Below are positions 3,542 to 57,034 of a stretch of 64,000 bases of DNA, in pieces (positions within the stretch are counted from its first letter, which is position 1; every line of letters starts with the position of its first letter). This stretch comes from Persicimonas caeni (lineage in GTDB: Bacteria; Myxococcota_A; Bradymonadia; Bradymonadales; Bradymonadaceae), in NCBI RefSeq assembly GCF_006517175.1, contig NZ_CP041186.1, forward strand, positions 6,413,074 to 6,477,073, given 5' to 3'. The notes below the pieces were generated by a model. That model was not told the origin of the DNA, searched no databases, and saw nothing but the letters and a program-made list of their open reading frames with translations. Both the position numbers and the translations under genes were made by a program.

Positions 3542-4524
3542 TGAGTGACCAGACCACACCCGATCGTGAGAGGGCGTTGCATCTGTTCAAGCAGATGCTT
3601 CGCGTGCGGCGCATGGAGGAGAAGTGCGCCGAGATGTACTCCGCCCAGAAGATCCGCGGCTTTTTGCACCTGTATATCGGCGAGGAGGCGATCGCCGTGG
3701 GCGTCATGGAGTCGCTTCGCGACGACGACGCAGTCGTGGCGACCTACCGCGAGCACGGCCACGCGCTCGTCAAAGGCATGTCGATGAACTGCCTGATGGC
3801 CGAGATGTACGGCAAGATGAGCGGCTGTAGCCGCGGCCGTGGCGGCTCGATGCACCTCTTTTCGAAGAAGCATCGCCTCTACGGCGGCAACGCCATCGTC
3901 GGCGGCGGCATCCCGTTGGCCACTGGACTGGCGCTCGCCGACAAGATGCAGGGGCGCGACCGGGTCACAGTATGCTTTTTCGGCGAGGGCGCTGTCGCCG
4001 AGGGCGAGTTTCACGAGTCGATGAACCTGGCCGAGCTGTGGAATCTGCCGGTGCTCTTTTGCTGCGAGAATAACCTCTATGCGATGGGCACCGCGCTGGA
4101 TCGCTCGGAATCACAGCCCGACATCCACCTGAAGGCGGCCAGCTACGGCATGCACTCGTCGCAGGTCGACGGGATGAACGTGCGCGAGGTCGAAAAGGCC
4201 GCCAAGAGCGCCGTCGACGCGGTGCGCCGCGGCGAGGGGCCGCGGTTCATCGAGCTTCGCACCTTCCGCTACCGCGCACATTCGATGTTCGACGCCGAAC
4301 TGTACCGCACCAAGACGGAGGTCCAGCAGTGGAGAGAGCGCGACCCGCTGGCAAATTACCTCGATTATCTCGAGCGTGAAGATCTCGTCGACGACGACGA
4401 GCTCGCGCGCATCGAGCAGGAGGTGATCGAGGAGGTCGAGCAGGCGGTCGAGTACGCCGAAAACGCAGATTGGGAGCCTGTCGAAGAACTGACCCGGTTC
4501 GTCTACAGCGAGGAGAAAGAGTGA
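3541..4524 (+). CDS. pdhA: Pyruvate dehydrogenase E1 component, alpha subunit
   Basis: Alpha subunit (327 residues) of the heterotetrameric thiamine-diphosphate E1, which decarboxylates pyruvate and reductively acetylates the lipoyl group of E2. The ThDP/Mg motif runs from [16 protein letters not shown] (about residue 148) to CENN (about 175). The phosphorylation-loop-like region around YRAHSMFD is also present. The N-terminal half resembles PDH and acetoin dehydrogenase E1 alpha. The stop overlaps the start of the beta subunit by one base, so the two are probably translationally coupled. Because acetoin and branched-chain 2-oxo acid dehydrogenases share this architecture, the substrate is inferred from the general sequence type and the acsA neighbour. 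Confidence 0.9.
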
Positions 4525-5513
4525 TGAGCGCCGAGACGATTACCTACCGTGAAGCCGTACGCCGGGCGATGTGCTCGGCGATGAGTGAAGACCCTCGGGT
4601 CTTTTTGATGGGCGAGGACGTGGGCGCCTACGGCGGCTGCTACGCCGTGAGCAAGGGGATGCTCGACGAGTTTGGCGAGCAACGGGTGCGCGATACGCCG
4701 TTGTCGGAGTCGGGCTTCGTCGGCGCCGGTATCGGCGCAGCCATCGGCGGCATGCGACCCATCGTCGAGATTATGACGGTCAACTTCAGCCTGCTCGCGC
4801 TCGACCAGATCGTGAACACGGCGGCGACCTTCCTGCACATGTCTGGCGGCCAATTCAACGTGCCGGTGGTCATCCGCATGGCCACCGGCGGCGGCAAGCA
4901 ACTCGCCGCGCAACACTCGCACAGCCTCGAGGGCTGGTACGCCCATATCCCGGGCATCAAGGTGGCGGTGCCGGCGACCATCGAGGACGCCCGGTGGATG
5001 TTGGCCACGGCCCTCGAAGACCCCGATCCGGTTCTCATCTTCGAGCATGCGGCGCTCTACAATATGGAGGGGGAGCTGCCCGAAGATGGTGCGCCGGTCG
5101 ACTTGGAGAAGGCGGTGGTGCACCGGCAGGGCAACGACGTCTCGCTCATCACCTACGGCGGCTCGCTCCACAAGTGCCTCGAGGCGGCCGACCAGCTCGC
5201 CGAGGACGGCATCAGCGCCGAAGTTGTCGACCTGCGCATGCTCCGCCCGCTCGACACCGAGGCGCTGGTCGAAACGGTAACCAAGACCCATCGCGCCGTG
5301 ATCGTCGACGAGGGGTGGAAGACCGGCTCGATTTCGGCCGAGATCACCACGCGCCTCGTCGAAGAGGCGTTCTACGAGCTCGACGCACCGGTCGCACGCG
5401 TGTGCACCGAAGAGGTGCCCATTCCCTATGCGAAGCACCTCGAGGATGCAGCGATTCCGCAGGTGCCCGACATTCTCGACGCGGTTCGAAAGGTGGTGGA
5501 ACATCATGTTTGA
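4524..5513 (+). CDS. pdhB: Pyruvate dehydrogenase E1 component, beta subunit
   Basis: Beta subunit (329 residues) of E1, pairing with the product of the preceding gene. It shows the transketolase-like pyrimidine domain ([12 protein letters not shown] near residue 26) and the C-terminal transketolase domain ([13 protein letters not shown] near 260). The start is ATG at 4524 inside TGATG, 1 bp overlapping pdhA, with AGGAGAAAGA just upstream. An in-frame ATG further upstream would lie wholly inside pdhA and is rejected. The 3' end overlaps the E2 start by 8 bases. Overlapping starts and stops through the cluster indicate one transcript and fixed stoichiometry. Confidence 0.91.
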
Positions 5514-28879: not shown

Positions 28880-29153
28880 CGCGTTCGGTGCGGGTGCTTC
28901 CAGCGCGCGTTCGGTGCGGGTGCTTCCAGCGCTCGTTCGGTGCGGGTGCTTCCAGCGCTCGTTCGGTGCGGGTGCTTCCAGCGCGCGTTCGGTGCGGGTG
29001 CTTCCAGCGCGCGTTCGGTGCGGGTGCTTCCAGCGCGCGTTCGGTGCGGGTGCTTCCAGCGCTCGTTCGGTGCGGGTGCTTCCAGCGCTCGTTCGGTGCG
29101 GGGGCTTCCAGCGCTCGTTCGGTGCGGGTGCTTCCAGCGCTCGCTCGGTGCGA
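28880..29153. repeat. Eleven-unit 26-bp tandem array
   Basis: Units begin at 28884 and every 26 bases to 29144, based on TTCGGTGCGGGTGCTTCCAGCGC with a C/T variable CG. All units are nearly identical except the last. The array starts right after the methyltransferase stop codon. All reading frames are open on both strands, which creates spurious ORFs. Each unit contains GCTTCCAGCGC, also found twice at 55979-56071. Confidence 0.9.
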
Positions 29154-29271
29154 GGCCATCTTGGCCTCGTCGACGAGGGCAAGATGCCCCCGCACCGAAG
29201 GAGGGTCGACGAGGGCAAGATGCCCCCGCACCGAAGGAGGGTCGACGAGGGCAAGATGCCCCCGCACCGAT
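29151..29271. repeat. Hairpin plus three 36-bp repeats in inverted register
   Basis: CGAGGCCA-TCT-TGGCCTCG (29151-29169) is an 8-bp hairpin that caps the 26-bp array. Three 36-bp units then start at 29169, 29205 and 29241 (GTCGACGAGGGCAAGATGCC...CGCACCGAAGGAGG). Their CCCGCACCGAA is the reverse complement of the TTCGGTGCGGG head of the 26-bp units, and GGGCAAGATGCCC-like cores are themselves hairpins. Confidence 0.88.
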
Positions 29272-29279
29272 CGTCTCGC

Positions 29280-30074
29280 TCACGCCTCGACGGGCTCCTC
29301 GTCCGTGTCGACGACCGGCTCGTCGGGCGTTTGCGGCTCGTCGAGGTCTTCGGGTTCGGGAAGCCCCTTGTTGCGCCGCGCCGTCGGGCGCACCTTCTCG
29401 GCGAGCGCGTCCTTGCGGGCCAGGTAGAACAGGCCCACGGCCACCTCGGCGACGCCGCGGTAATCGTACTTCAACTCGGCCTCGGCCTCGTCGCGCTCCG
29501 AGCGCGCCTGCTGGGTCTGGCGGGTGTCGGACTCGTTGTCGCGGGTGGCCTGCTCGACCTCGGCGCGCAGCGCGGCGAGCGTGTTGGCGTACTCGTTGGC
29601 GTCCAGCGGCTGTCGCCGCGGGCGCGTCTCGCTCGGAAAGCCCACCTGACGAAGCTGCTGCTCGAAGCCGGCCGACGCCTGGATGATGTCGTGGGCGTCG
29701 GTCGGCGTCTCGCCGGTGTAGCCGAGCCGGTCGGCGACCTGGGCGCCGTAGGTGCCCGCGATCTGGCTGCGCTGCCAGAAGACTTCCTCGCGCAGTGTCT
29801 CTACCGTTTCGTCTTCCGACTGGCTCGCCGCGGAGTCCTCACCCATTTCGACCATCACGCGGCTGGCCAACGCCGAGAAACTCTCGGTCGAGCCCTCCAG
29901 GTAATCGGCCAAGTCGAGCATGAACTGCTCGACGGTCAGGTCGGTCGGCGCATTGCCGTCGTAGACGAGCTCGACGATGCTCGCGGCGACTTCGGGACCC
30001 TGCGTGCGCAGGGCTCCGATGACCGTACCGGTGACCAGTTTGAAGTTGGCTGCTGTCTTCGAAAGAACTGCCAT
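29280..30074 (-). CDS. Unknown protein with helical central region and acidic tail
   Basis: A 264-residue protein with no recognised domain. It starts MAVLSKTAANFKLVTGTVIGALRTQG; AAGGAG lies before the ATG. Residues 45-185 look alpha-helical. A stretch rich in Arg, Gln and Glu with heptad-like spacing (about 165-205) may be a coiled coil. A short conserved-looking segment (YDYRGVAEVAVGLFYLARKDALAEKVRPT) precedes a Pro/Glu/Asp-rich tail. There is no signal peptide or membrane helix, so it is probably cytoplasmic. It is bounded on both sides by repeat arrays. The codon pattern agrees with neighbouring genes, which supports it as real. Confidence 0.72.
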   Translation of the reverse strand: MAVLSKTAANFKLVTGTVIGALRTQGPEVAASIVELVYDGNAPTDLTVEQFMLDLADYLEGSTESFSALASRVMVEMGEDSAASQSEDETVETLREEVFWQRSQIAGTYGAQVADRLGYTGETPTDAHDIIQASAGFEQQLRQVGFPSETRPRRQPLDANEYANTLAALRAEVEQATRDNESDTRQTQQARSERDEAEAELKYDYRGVAEVAVGLFYLARKDALAEKVRPTARRNKGLPEPEDLDEPQTPDEPVVDTDEEPVEA

Positions 30075-30316: not shown

Positions 30317-30780
30317 GAAATGGGCGGCGGCGCTGAACCCGACCTCGTTTCGGGATTGGAAACGCACTCGAGTTCAGCCCGCGACACCATTTTCAGCCGG
30401 GAGGTCGACTGGAAGCAGACTCCCGCGCCATTTTGCAGCGGAACCTGCTTCCGAGGGCAGGGCGGCGCGGCTTTCGCAGACTAGAAGAGGGCCGGCGAGC
30501 AGGCCTCATCGCTTTTCGGGGCTGGAAGACGGCTCGAAAACAGACCGCGACGCCGTTTCCAAGTTGGAAATGACGTCTCGGTCTGCTCGGCGAAGCATTT
30601 GGTCGTGCGAAATGGTCGGCGGGTCTGCTCGCGAGGCGTGTTCGCGTCGCAAATGCGCGCGAGTTCTGTTCCGGAGGTCTTTTCCGTCCGCAGAATGCGG
30701 TCGGGGTCGCGTTGCGACCGAAGGCTCGTGTCGCAAATGAGGGCGAGTTCAGCTCGTGCGTCTATTTCGGCGGGGCGCGC
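30317..30780. repeat. Degenerate tandem array with a period of about 42 bp (11 units)
   Basis: Units begin at about 30317, 30359, 30401, 30441, 30484, 30525, 30567, 30609, 30650, 30692 and 30734, spaced 40-43 bases apart. The shared pattern is GAAATG, then about five bases, CG, a TCTGCTCG-like core, then GCC and TTTTCG near the end. At each boundary TTTC and GAAA face each other across a few bases and can pair. The units share perhaps half their bases, so the array is old or constrained in spacing. No convincing gene overlaps it; 30781-30915 has nothing recognisable. Confidence 0.8.
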
Positions 30781-30915
30781 GGCGTCCTCGCCCGCCCTGG
30801 GGCGTCCCCGCCCCAGCTTGTGTGTCCTTAGGCGAGGCGTTCGCACCGCCTACACACGTGCGGGGCCCGAGACGGACCCCGGCGGTCGGGGACGACCGCG
30901 CCCCAACGTCCGCAC

Positions 30916-31794
30916 TCACGGCACGGTCATCACCGCGCAGGGCGGGTGGCGCAGCACGCGGGCGGCGGTGCTGCCGAGCATGACGCGTTTGAGGCCGCGG
31001 TGGCCGGCGGTGCCCATGCAGATGAGGTCGACGCCTTCTTCGTCGGCGACGTTGTCGATGGCGGCCGAGGGCGTGCTGATGCGCAGCAGGCGCGAGCTGT
31101 CGAGGTCGGTCAGGTCGAACTCCTCGATGAACTGGTCGAACTCGGCCCACTTTTGCTCTTCGTAGGCTTCGACCGACTCGGGCGGGGCCTGCATGTCGAG
31201 CAGGGCGAGGCTGGCGGCGGGTAGGGCGAAGGCGTGCAAGATCAGCAGCTCGGCGTCGTTTTGGCGGGCGAGGTCGGCGGCGAGCTCGAGGCTTTTTCGG
31301 CTGAAGTCGGAGAAGTCGACCGGGGCCAAGATCTTGTGGAACGACTCGCCTTTGGCCTCGGGCGGTACGGTGAGCACGGGGATTTCGCTGCTGCGGACGA
31401 CGTGCTCGGCGCTGCTTCCCAGCAGGACGTTTTTGAGGGGGCCCGCGCCCGTCGAGCCGAGCACGAGCAGGTCGGCGTTGTGGGCGTCGGCGGCGGCGAG
31501 GATGCCGTCGGCGGCGCTTTTGAGCTCGACGACGTAGGAGACGTCGGCGGGCATCTCGTCGTCGTCGAGGACCTCGCGCACCGTCTCGCGCAGCCGCGAC
31601 TCGGCGACCTTGCGGATGCGCTCGGGGACCTCCCAGGGGGTCTGGACCAGGTGGCGCCAGAACGCGTCCTCGTCGGCGTGGACCACGCTGTGGGCCACGA
31701 CCAGCTTGCCGTCGCCCGCGCGCGCCAGGTGGGCGGCGTGGCACAGCGCGGCGTGCGAGTTTTTCGAGAAGTCGATTGCTGCGAGGACGGTCAT
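30916..31794 (-). CDS. Universal stress protein with two UspA domains
   Basis: A 292-residue protein made of two tandem UspA domains (about residues 1-140 and 148-292). Each has the nucleotide-binding pattern near its end: GSTGAGPLKNVLLGSSAEHVV and GTAGHRGLKRVMLGSTAARVL (G-2x-G-9x-G-S/T), so ATP binding is expected in both. It is cytoplasmic. Such proteins aid survival under low oxygen, energy stress or oxidants. The ATG is chosen at MTVLAAIDFSKNS, the family N-terminus, with GGAG upstream. It stands upstream of the second cbb3 locus, next to an FNR-box gene, which agrees with a role in oxygen limitation. Confidence 0.9.
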   Translation of the reverse strand: MTVLAAIDFSKNSHAALCHAAHLARAGDGKLVVAHSVVHADEDAFWRHLVQTPWEVPERIRKVAESRLRETVREVLDDDEMPADVSYVVELKSAADGILAAADAHNADLLVLGSTGAGPLKNVLLGSSAEHVVRSSEIPVLTVPPEAKGESFHKILAPVDFSDFSRKSLELAADLARQNDAELLILHAFALPAASLALLDMQAPPESVEAYEEQKWAEFDQFIEEFDLTDLDSSRLLRISTPSAAIDNVADEEGVDLICMGTAGHRGLKRVMLGSTAARVLRHPPCAVMTVP

Positions 31795-50837: not shown

Positions 50838-51067
50838 CCGGACTCCCTTCGGTCGCCCGGGGCTACCGAGGCCTCGCAAAAGGCGCTCGGCGCGGCGCTG
50901 GACGGCGGCGCCTTGGTGGGTGGGTTGGCGGTGGTAGGCGACGGGTTGGCGGTGGCCGGCGAGTTGCCCACCAAGGCGCGTAGTCCGCGCCGCGCCGGAG
51001 TGAAGCGAAGCGAAACGAAGGCCTCGGTAGCCCGGGGCGACCGTAGCGAAGCGAAGGGAGTCCCGGG
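50838..51067. repeat. REP/BIME-like 230-bp palindromic element, left copy
   Basis: It begins CCGGACTCCCTTCGGTCGCC and ends with its inverse (GGCCTCGGTAGCCC...GGGAGTCCCGGG), the ends differing by a 10-base insertion. Inside, CGCCTTGGTGGG and CCCACCAAGGCG form a 12-bp stem. It differs from the right copy at only two of 230 positions. A partial duplicate of its end (GCGAAGGGAGTCCCGGGACG) follows to about 51098. Confidence 0.9.
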
Positions 51068-51113: not shown

Positions 51114-51542
51114 CTAGGCTGCCTCCTCAAATCCCTCCTCCATGATTTCCTCGAACACGCTCCAGGTGATGCCTCGTCGATGATGCTCCTTTTGCTTTTC
51201 TACGTAGCGAACGGCGTCTTGGTAATCGAGCGCGCTCAACGTGAAGGCGCCGAACCCGACCTGCCACTTGAAGTTGCGGCGACGACGGAAGTTGCGGCGA
51301 ATCGCACCGGAAGACTCGGACTTGGTTCGATCGATGAAATGGGACGGAGCAACTTTGGGCTTGATTGCCGCGATGAGATGCACGTGGTCTTCGACGCCGC
51401 CAAGGGTGATGATCTTTCCGTCATTTCGAGCTGCCGAACTGATGAGCACCGGGTAGAGGAATTCCTCGATCTCGGCGTCGATCCATTTGGCGCGACCTTT
51501 CGTGGCGAAGACAATATGAAAGCGAAAGCGGGTGAATGGCAT
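51114..51542 (-). CDS. REP-associated tyrosine transposase (IS200/Y1 HUH family)
   Basis: A 142-residue Y1 transposase. It begins MPFTRFRFHIVFATKGR, has the HUH metal pair in GGVEDHVHLIAAI (about 48-60) and the catalytic tyrosine in YVEKQKEHH (about 113-121). Such enzymes cleave single-stranded hairpins; RAYT members act on REP elements. GGAG six bases before the ATG supports the start. The frame is intact and all key residues are present, so it may be active. Flanking palindromes share its likely specificity. Confidence 0.87.
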   Translation of the reverse strand: MPFTRFRFHIVFATKGRAKWIDAEIEEFLYPVLISSAARNDGKIITLGGVEDHVHLIAAIKPKVAPSHFIDRTKSESSGAIRRNFRRRRNFKWQVGFGAFTLSALDYQDAVRYVEKQKEHHRRGITWSVFEEIMEEGFEEAA

Positions 51543-51734: not shown

Positions 51735-51964
51735 CCGGACTCCCTTCGGTCGCCCGGGGCTACCGAGGCCTCGCAAAAGGCGCTCGGCGCGGCGCTGGAC
51801 GGCGGCGCCTTGGTGGGTGGGTTGGCGGTGGTAGGCGACGGGTTGGCGGTGGCGGGCGAGTTGCCCACCAAGGCGCGCAGTCCGCGCCGCGCCGGAGTGA
51901 AGCGAAGCGAAACGAAGGCCTCGGTAGCCCGGGGCGACCGTAGCGAAGCGAAGGGAGTCCCGGG
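51735..51964. repeat. REP/BIME-like 230-bp palindromic element, right copy
   Basis: Direct copy of 50838-51067 with two substitutions (GGCGGGCGAG for GGCCGGCGAG, and GCGCGCAG for GCGCGTAG). It lies 192 bases upstream of the transposase start. The remaining 51965-52002 is a short spacer before the stop of the RCC1 lipoprotein gene. Confidence 0.9.
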
Positions 51965-52002: not shown

Positions 52003-53955
52003 CTAAAAACCTACAACCTTCGTCGGCACGCGAACCCCACTCGGTGCGCCCCAGCACCACGGCTTGCCTGACGTGTCGAGGGCGCAGGTGCCGGCGCCGC
52101 CGGCGGTGACGTCGGTGAAGTCGGCCGAGGAGCTGATTTTGGTGGCTTGTGGGCGGCTCGTAGTCGAGCCGAGGCCGAGTTGGCCGGCGCCGTTTTGGCC
52201 CCAGCAGTAGACGTCGCCGCCCGGACCGAGGGCGCAGGTGTGGGCGTGGCCGGCGGCCAGGCGCGAGAAGGAGACCGGGGCCGAGATCAGGATCGGGGTG
52301 TGGCGCTCGGTTGTGGTGCCGTCGCCGAGTTGGCCGGCGTCGTTGGCGCCCCAGCAGGCGGTGCTGCCGTCGGTGCCGATGCCGCAGGTGTGTGCGTCGC
52401 CGAGTGCGAGGGTGACGAACTCGTAGCCGCCGAGCACCTGGGTGGGGTTGTTGCGGTCGTTGGTGTCGTTGACGCCGAGTTGGCCGCGGTCGTTTTTGCC
52501 CCAGCAGTAGGCGTGGCCGGCGGTGTCGAGGGCGCAGGTGTGTTGGGCGCCGGCGAAGACTTTGGCGAAGCTCGAGCCGGGGGCGCGCACCGGGCTCGTC
52601 GAGGCGGTGGTGGTGCCGTCGCCGAGCTGGCCGGCGTCGTTTTTGCCCCAGCACCAGACCTGGCCGCTGTTCGTCACGCCGCACGTGTGCTGGGCGCCTG
52701 CCGAGACTCCCTGCAGGTCGGAGGCGTTGGTGACCTGGGTCGGGACGGCGCGGGCGGTGGTGGTGCCGTCGCCGAGCTGGCCGGCGTCGTTCTTGCCCCA
52801 GCACCAGGCTTGGCTTCCGTCCGTGGCGCACGAGTGCGCGTCGCCCAGCGAGATGACGTCGAGCGGCGAGCCGGTCGAGGCGCGGCCGAGCGCGGCGGTC
52901 GCGCCGGTGGTGCCTTGGCCGACCTGGCCGTGGTCGTTTTGGCCCCAGCAAAACGCGATGCCTTGCACCAGGCCGCAGCCGTGGCCTGCGCCGAGTCCGA
53001 GCGCCGAGACCGAGAAGTCGACGTCGATATAGGCGGTGTCGCTCTTGCCTCCGCTCGAGGCGATGATCGTCGCGCTCCCTTCGCCGACCGCCTCGACGCG
53101 TCCGTTGGCGTCGACGGTGGCGACGTCGGGCGCCGAGCTCGTCCAGGTGAGGTCGGGGTCGCTCATGACTTGGCCGTTATTGTCGAAGACCTGCGCCTGC
53201 AGCTGCACGGTGTCGCCGCGCACGAGCTGGTCACTCGCCGGGGTCACCTCGACACGCTCGACATTCGTCGGCGTCGCCTCGACGATGATCGCTGCGGTGT
53301 CGCTCTTTCCCTCACAGGTCACCGTAATGGTGGCGTTCCCCGCGCTCACGCCGGTGACGACGCCCGCCGGCGAGACGACCGCCACCTCGGGAGCCGACGA
53401 CACAAATTCGATGTCGCGCTCATCTTCGATGGCCGATCGGTTGACGTCCTCCAAGAAGACCGTCAGCTCGACCTGCTCGCCGATCTGGAGGGTGCGGTCG
53501 TCGGGGATGACCTCGACGGTCTCGACGGGCTTGCCTTTGACGCGCACGCTGACCGACGCGCTGACGTCCTCGAGGGTGGCCGTGATCGTGGCCGTGCCGA
53601 GCCCTCGCCCGTAGATCTTGGCGTACTCGTTGACCGTGGCGACGTCCTCGTTCGAGCTGCTCCAGACGACGTCGTTGGTCGGAAGCTCCGAGCCGTCCGA
53701 GCCGAGCGCGGTCACCTCGAGCGTCAGCGCCGTGTTCACCTCGATGACCGGATCGGCCGGGGAGATCTCGAGGCCCACGAGCGTCGGCTCGGGCTCGGCG
53801 GTGTCGGTGGAGGCGTCGGCGGTGTCGGAGCTCGTGTCGGGCGTCAGCGCGGCGTCAGGCGTCTCGATCTCGTCGCCGGGGTCGAGGACCGAGCAGGCGG
53901 TGATGGGGGCTAGGCTGACGGCGAGGGCTAGGAGGGCGAGCGTGCGATACTTCAT
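52003..53955 (-). CDS. Lipoprotein with Ig-like domains and RCC1 repeats
   Basis: A 650-residue surface lipoprotein (lipobox PITAC near residue 21). After a Thr/Asp-rich linker come three Big2 Ig-like domains (about 60-140, 145-230 and 235-315, each ending GxATITAT/GNATITVT-like) and seven RCC1-type blades (about 320-650). Each blade has CWGxNDxGQLGDGTT or a close variant preceded by AGxxHTCAL. RCC1 repeats form a seven-bladed propeller, so one full propeller is predicted. Its role is probably binding at the cell surface; no enzyme signature is visible. Confidence 0.87.
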   Translation of the reverse strand: MKYRTLALLALAVSLAPITACSVLDPGDEIETPDAALTPDTSSDTADASTDTAEPEPTLVGLEISPADPVIEVNTALTLEVTALGSDGSELPTNDVVWSSSNEDVATVNEYAKIYGRGLGTATITATLEDVSASVSVRVKGKPVETVEVIPDDRTLQIGEQVELTVFLEDVNRSAIEDERDIEFVSSAPEVAVVSPAGVVTGVSAGNATITVTCEGKSDTAAIIVEATPTNVERVEVTPASDQLVRGDTVQLQAQVFDNNGQVMSDPDLTWTSSAPDVATVDANGRVEAVGEGSATIIASSGGKSDTAYIDVDFSVSALGLGAGHGCGLVQGIAFCWGQNDHGQVGQGTTGATAALGRASTGSPLDVISLGDAHSCATDGSQAWCWGKNDAGQLGDGTTTARAVPTQVTNASDLQGVSAGAQHTCGVTNSGQVWCWGKNDAGQLGDGTTTASTSPVRAPGSSFAKVFAGAQHTCALDTAGHAYCWGKNDRGQLGVNDTNDRNNPTQVLGGYEFVTLALGDAHTCGIGTDGSTACWGANDAGQLGDGTTTERHTPILISAPVSFSRLAAGHAHTCALGPGGDVYCWGQNGAGQLGLGSTTSRPQATKISSSADFTDVTAGGAGTCALDTSGKPWCWGAPSGVRVPTKVVGF

Positions 53956-56668: not shown

Positions 56669-56761
56669 GACTGATCCTGTGGAGCCTTGCTAAAAACCTG
56701 CGTCGGTCGAAACGTCTCCCGGGCTCAAACCTATGTGCTCGCGCGGTATTAACAAGACCGG

Positions 56762-57034
56762 TCGCCGAGCTACAAATACAGCTCGCCGGGCTACAGAGAA
56801 GTGTCGCCGGGCTACAGAGAAGTGTCGCCGGGCTACAGAGAAGTGTCGCCGGGCTACAGAGAAGTGTCGCCGGGCTACAGAGAAGTGTCGCCGGGCTACA
56901 GAGAAGTGTCGTCGGGCTACAGAGAAGTGTCGCCGGGCTACAGAGAAGTGTCGCCGGGCTACAGAGAAGTGTCGCCGGGCTACAGAGAAGTGTCGCCGGG
57001 CTACAGAGAAGTGTCGCCGGGCCACAAACAGGTG
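56762..57034. repeat. Thirteen-unit 21-bp tandem array
   Basis: Exactly 13 units of 21 bases (273 bp), based on TCGCCGGGCTACAGAGAAGTG. The first and last units are diverged; the internal units are almost identical, one having TCGTCGGGC. It lies between two minus-strand genes, 94 bases upstream of the PH-like gene start and 7 bases after the stop of the next gene. All six frames stay open, producing false seven-residue repeat proteins. Confidence 0.92.

Follow-up and report, generated by a model that had tools for sequence, protein, structure and literature searches.

A degenerate eleven-unit array in Persicimonas caeni and its probable place in a class of intergenic minisatellites with 41-44 bp units

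What keeps a tandem array in step when the sequences of its units have drifted apart? The question is raised by a locus within a 64,000-nucleotide stretch of the Persicimonas caeni genome (contig NZ_CP041186.1, positions 6,413,074 to 6,477,073; hereafter the window), where eleven degenerate units spaced at about 42 bp had been predicted between 30317 and 30780 and tentatively read as a nucleoid-protein array, a structural transcript or an origin-like iteron field. We observe an autocorrelation match of 41.5% at lag 42 (z 6.85), with lag 41 at z 4.8, lags 83 and 84 at z 5.6 and 5.4, and lag 125 at z 7.42. In 500 dinucleotide shuffles the highest z at any lag had a 99th percentile of 3.99; the lag 42 and lag 125 peaks stand far above this null, and the eleven diverged units at 40-43 bp spacing are borne out by the autocorrelation that had been proposed as their check. 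The units start at 30317, 30359, 30400, 30441, 30484, 30525, 30567, 30609, 30650, 30691 and 30734, and the array ends at 30770; full units are 41-43 bp long, and 40-43 bp in a paralogue described below. Mean identity between units is 48% (shuffled units: 34%), and at score 30 the array escapes TRF, which marks it as degenerate. The motifs said to be shared by the units, GAAATG at the front and TTTTCG near the end, persist as consensus features (GAAATG and TTTTC) but are not invariant, as only 1 of 43 columns is constant among 20 aligned units. A profile of unit pairs aligned poorly and was dropped.

The array occupies part of the 841 bp that separate two minus-strand genes, with the following features:

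29280..30074, minus strand: hypothetical gene without a Pfam match, its start 243 bp from the array
30317..30770, no strand assigned: degenerate array, 11 units of ~42 bp (autocorrelation, unit matrix)
30317..30562, plus strand: left arm, units 1-6, of an array-wide imperfect inverted repeat (inverted score, fold)
30556..30570, no strand assigned: central palindrome TTTCCAAGTTGGAAA, perfect (pattern search of the genome)
30564..30770, minus strand: right arm, units 7-11, reverse-complement-like to the left arm (inverted score, paralogue copy)
30771..30907, no strand assigned: GC-rich multi-copy intergenic element between the array and the Usp gene, separate from the array
30916..31794, minus strand: universal stress protein gene with two Usp domains, its 3′ end facing the array

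The array thus falls slightly short of its predicted extent, since positions 30771-30780 belong to the GC-rich element, which has more than 80 matching places in the genome. This element contains several inverted repeats and occurs elsewhere singly or in tandem, with units of 47 bp and 157-159 bp. Other repeats were also found in the window. Two homogeneous intergenic arrays lie behind a methyltransferase gene: a 26-bp array of 10.4 copies at 28882-29152 (97% identity) and a 36-bp array of 2.8 copies at 29169-29270 (100%). A 21-bp array of 12.7 copies (GTCGCCGGGCTACAGAGAAGT) at 56761-57026 has a unit of half of 42 bp, and six copies of a ~150-bp repeat at 52048-52950 (65% identity) are probably coding.

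Comparison of the left arm with the reverse complement of the right arm gives a score of 63.5, against 44 for the direct comparison and a shuffle maximum of 34; the two halves are inverted copies of each other and the array can fold back on itself. The predicted pairing of TTTC...GAAA at unit boundaries is real and includes the perfect TTTCCAAGTTGGAAA palindrome at the center. A second place in the genome (G000:C1:7196194-7196481) holds a copy of the right arm and of the adjoining ~44 bp of the GC-rich element, at 85% identity and with few indels, and the two copies are oriented oppositely relative to their flanking genes. Only these two loci carry this array in the genome; consistent with this, TTTYCAANTTGRAAA, allowing up to one mismatch, is confined to the window array and its paralogue in the 8.05 Mb. 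The least-changed columns between the paralogues are 1-7 (GAAATG, 10%) and 15-22 (the GTCTG core, 8%), with 21-23% elsewhere, although the numbers are small. Substitutions between the two copies are distributed over codon positions as 10/15/14, without bias; each of the six frames is interrupted by stops in both arrays, and no frame survives units that vary between 40 and 43 bp. A coding repeat was therefore rejected, as the original prediction had expected, there being neither codon-position bias nor an open frame across all units, and the eleven-unit array is both real and non-coding. A blastn search of the paralogous array against 58 genomes (its own and relatives) returned beyond its own genome just three short matches, all to the flanking GC-rich end; phage records gave no match to the window array, and Rfam gave only sub-threshold chance matches.

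Loci chosen only for the GC-rich element proved to contain other arrays of about 42 bp. The genome is a single contig of 8,047,206 bp, of which we sampled 80 stretches of 20 kb plus the window (1.66 Mb, 21% of the genome); genes were called with a home-made caller, so that intergenic assignments are approximate. The sample contains 29 arrays with a period of 40-43.5, and 25 of these lie between genes. Among intergenic arrays with 30-60 bp units and at least about three copies, 21 of 30 have units of 41-44 bp (binomial p ~1e-12, the arrays being not fully independent because some are related). For coding arrays the figure is 7 of 53, which is chance level, and unit lengths there are multiples of 3. 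The dinucleotide-shuffled sample yielded just four rows, with about three copies. The commonest unit length in the genome is 41 bp, and lengths of 43-44 bp also occur. Unit consensuses from different loci are mostly unrelated; a minority fall into small families, with four pairs scoring above any shuffle. Extrapolation from 21% of the genome gives ~120 such arrays, so that there are probably more than a hundred. The window array is therefore not the single special field that had been envisaged but one of these ~120 (extrapolated), mostly with unrelated units. Literature searches, confined to open-access papers, found no description of this array class for the order.

These arrays have a characteristic position relative to genes. 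When an array end faces the 3′ end of a gene, it lies within 50 bp of it in 8 of 20 cases (2-46 bp), and when it faces a gene start it is at least 126 bp away in 16 of 18. Five loci (L150, L018, L215, L040 and L019) have as their end unit a canonical intrinsic terminator with homology to the rest of the array (p <= 0.015). Three of these, L150, L018 and L215, form one family of terminator-ended arrays, and three terminator-ended arrays lie 26-30 bp from a gene 3′ end. The window array has no unit with a GC stem and T-tract homologous to its other units.

With the same pipeline, relatives gave no such array in G005 (200 kb), one of 44 bp in G008 (200 kb), three in G013 (100 kb; 42, 43 and 43 bp) and one of 43 bp in G051 (71 kb). 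In the sister genus to which G013 belongs, three species have an orthologous array of 8 units in register downstream of a conserved terminator. It is 85-86% identical between species, compared with 95-96% for the gene, with 2-3 gap columns, so that the conserved spacing with drifting sequence predicted within the window array is also seen directly between species. This array family occupies 17-24 places per genome. At another orthologous site, G016 and G018 have a 43-bp array in common, and G013 carries a 43-bp array at the same junction without detectable similarity to it. As a further observation, G008 contains at L240 a perfect 44-bp array of 7.6 copies with the hairpin CCAGACCATCTTGGTCTGG (4253-4587), ~120 bp from a Y1_Tnp gene, and on the other side a 108-bp array with the same hairpin (4708-4920).

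The reading that we favor, with modest confidence, makes the window array an old representative, now decayed, of a class of intergenic minisatellites that is specific to the lineage, often prone to hairpins and built of units of ~41-44 bp. In this genome the arrays mostly lie between genes, often immediately downstream of one gene and at a distance from the promoter region of whichever gene follows. Their units are mostly quasi-palindromic, but about half of the arrays lack strong self-complementarity, which counts against this reading. They may arise through tandem amplification of about 42 bp of local DNA, and at several loci the amplified source would be the intrinsic terminator hairpin of the neighboring gene. 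Arrays are sometimes copied between loci, as for the window array and the array at C1:7196 kb, and would then drift by substitution with few indels, so that the period outlasts the sequence. The window array has no intact terminator and the nearest strong hairpin belongs to the GC-rich element; a terminator ancestry is thus suggested for it only by analogy with the other loci. The window copy is probably a passive 3′-side spacer or fold-back structure, without a specific function. As in bacterial intergenic minisatellites (VNTR loci), the class comprises tandem intergenic units of tens of bp, from near-identical to degenerate, at many loci, and the window array itself consists of head-to-tail repeats beyond chance that lie between genes and are non-coding. 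The class differs from VNTR minisatellites in a narrow 41-44 bp unit length common to mostly unrelated arrays, in strong divergence with the register preserved, and, at the one locus compared, in a copy number that is the same between species.

What sets the unit length? The 41-44 bp unit is already present in homogeneous arrays (84-98% identical), which favors a length set at the birth of the array. Against our reading, we identified no known mutational mechanism that would generate units of 41-44 bp. The unit length in the window array and its paralogue has a standard deviation of 0.79 bp, a value that simulation reaches readily only with substitutions outnumbering indels about 50-fold; so low a variance is hard to obtain at commoner indel rates and could mean selection on spacing. 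A broader proposal, which we put forward tentatively, is that in this order some mutational or selective process makes or keeps intergenic arrays at ~42 bp regardless of sequence, so that what is conserved would be the unit length, whereas the sequence turns over, orthologous sites included. If true, such arrays would be the bacterial equivalent of a satellite DNA whose monomer length is fixed. Unit lengths of bacterial non-coding repeats are usually regarded as arbitrary. The sharp 41-44 bp preference across mostly unrelated arrays, including young ones and a site where the sequence has turned over, offers a testable handle on minisatellite unit length.

The arrays could instead act as structured 3′ transcripts or multiple terminators, with the repeated hairpins serving to end transcription, to insulate it or to protect the mRNA upstream. 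No shuffle folds as well as the whole array on either strand (z -4.12 and -4.95), and across the class the location near 3′ ends and the canonical terminators that close several arrays, three of them 26-30 bp from a gene, point in the same direction. At several loci a terminator hairpin with homology to the remaining units closes the array; however, the T-tract and perfect stem of intrinsic (Rho-independent) terminators are missing from most units and from all units of the window array, and the hairpins of the window array have weak T-tracts at best. It is the GC-rich element, not an array hairpin, that adjoins the Usp gene, and the opposite orientations of array and paralogue relative to their flanking genes also speak against this reading. 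Several arrays elsewhere are unstructured. A structural transcript, one of the roles originally predicted, is compatible with the fold of the window array, but structure is strong in only about half of the class, and we regard it as unlikely.

Alternatively, the array could be a spacing-constrained binding array for a nucleoid or architectural protein or gyrase, with one site per ~42 bp, in which the spacing is selected and most of the sequence is not. The unit lengths vary less than under common neutral indel rates (simulation, P <= 0.0065 for indels at 1:30 or more frequent), spacing and copy number are kept in three species despite 15% sequence divergence, and the period is kept at an orthologous site with completely different sequence. 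However, the units of most arrays have no common motif, young homogeneous arrays already show the length, and a histone-fold gene search of the genome found none. The original prediction had placed all motifs on the same face of the helix (4 x 10.5 = 42 bp), which is doubtful because 41 bp, the commonest length, fails to hold one face at 10.5 bp per turn, and 43-44 bp units also occur. This reading too is improbable.

REP/BIME repeats resemble the arrays in being extragenic, more or less palindromic and mostly downstream of genes, and can form larger fold-back structures (PMC3733652, PMC2817692). A REP/BIME-like element mobilized by a REP-associated tyrosine transposase would accord with the quasi-palindromic, extragenic units, with the 26 Y1_Tnp places in the genome, with a 43-bp array (L165) ~180 bp from one such domain, and with the sampled 44-bp array of G008 ~120 bp from another. 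This explanation is nevertheless very unlikely. Just 1 of the 26 transposase loci has a ~42-bp array nearby, about the chance rate, the units have no invariant tetranucleotide tag of the GTAG/CGTC type, and with two loci in the genome the array is not a high-copy dispersed family. Unlike REP/BIME elements, the arrays have neither a common tag nor a high-copy consensus, form long head-to-tail runs and show no general link to transposase genes. The units of the window array are imperfect quasi-palindromes, slightly longer than the 20-40 bp REP unit. Transposase-driven spread, tested at the 26 loci of the genome and about 20 in relatives, was unsupported. One of the 26 Y1_Tnp (RAYT-like) transposases is encoded in the window at 51192-51530 on the minus strand, flanked by near-identical direct repeats at 50922-51020 and 51819-51917.

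A protein-coding 14-residue repeat or a replication-origin iteron field can be dismissed as extremely improbable: 42 is divisible by 3, and a single minus-strand frame is open over ~120 codons in both paralogues, but the substitution, stop and frame data above argue against coding, intergenic arrays peak at 41 bp and not at multiples of 3, and the origin role in the original prediction has no support because similar arrays are scattered over the genome, the array has no strictly conserved motif, and the adjacent genes encode Usp and a protein without a Pfam match, with no initiator seen.

Paired CCAANTTGGAA palindromes were also looked for across genome contigs, which turned up arrays in other phyla; units of 21 or 42 bp occur in some of them, and some clearly encode protein. 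What these arrays have in common is a short palindrome, and any kinship with the window class is conjectural. The palindrome CCAAGTTGG/CCAACTTGG recurs every 21 bp in Paenisporosarcina sp. TG20 (L084), where spacers vary and there are many such loci, and in Anaerolineales (L069 and L074). Long arrays carrying CCAAATTGG or CCAACTTGG have 42-bp units in a Sphingobacteriaceae contig (L104 1659-2295) and 39-bp units in Cupriavidus lacunae (L110 888-1514).
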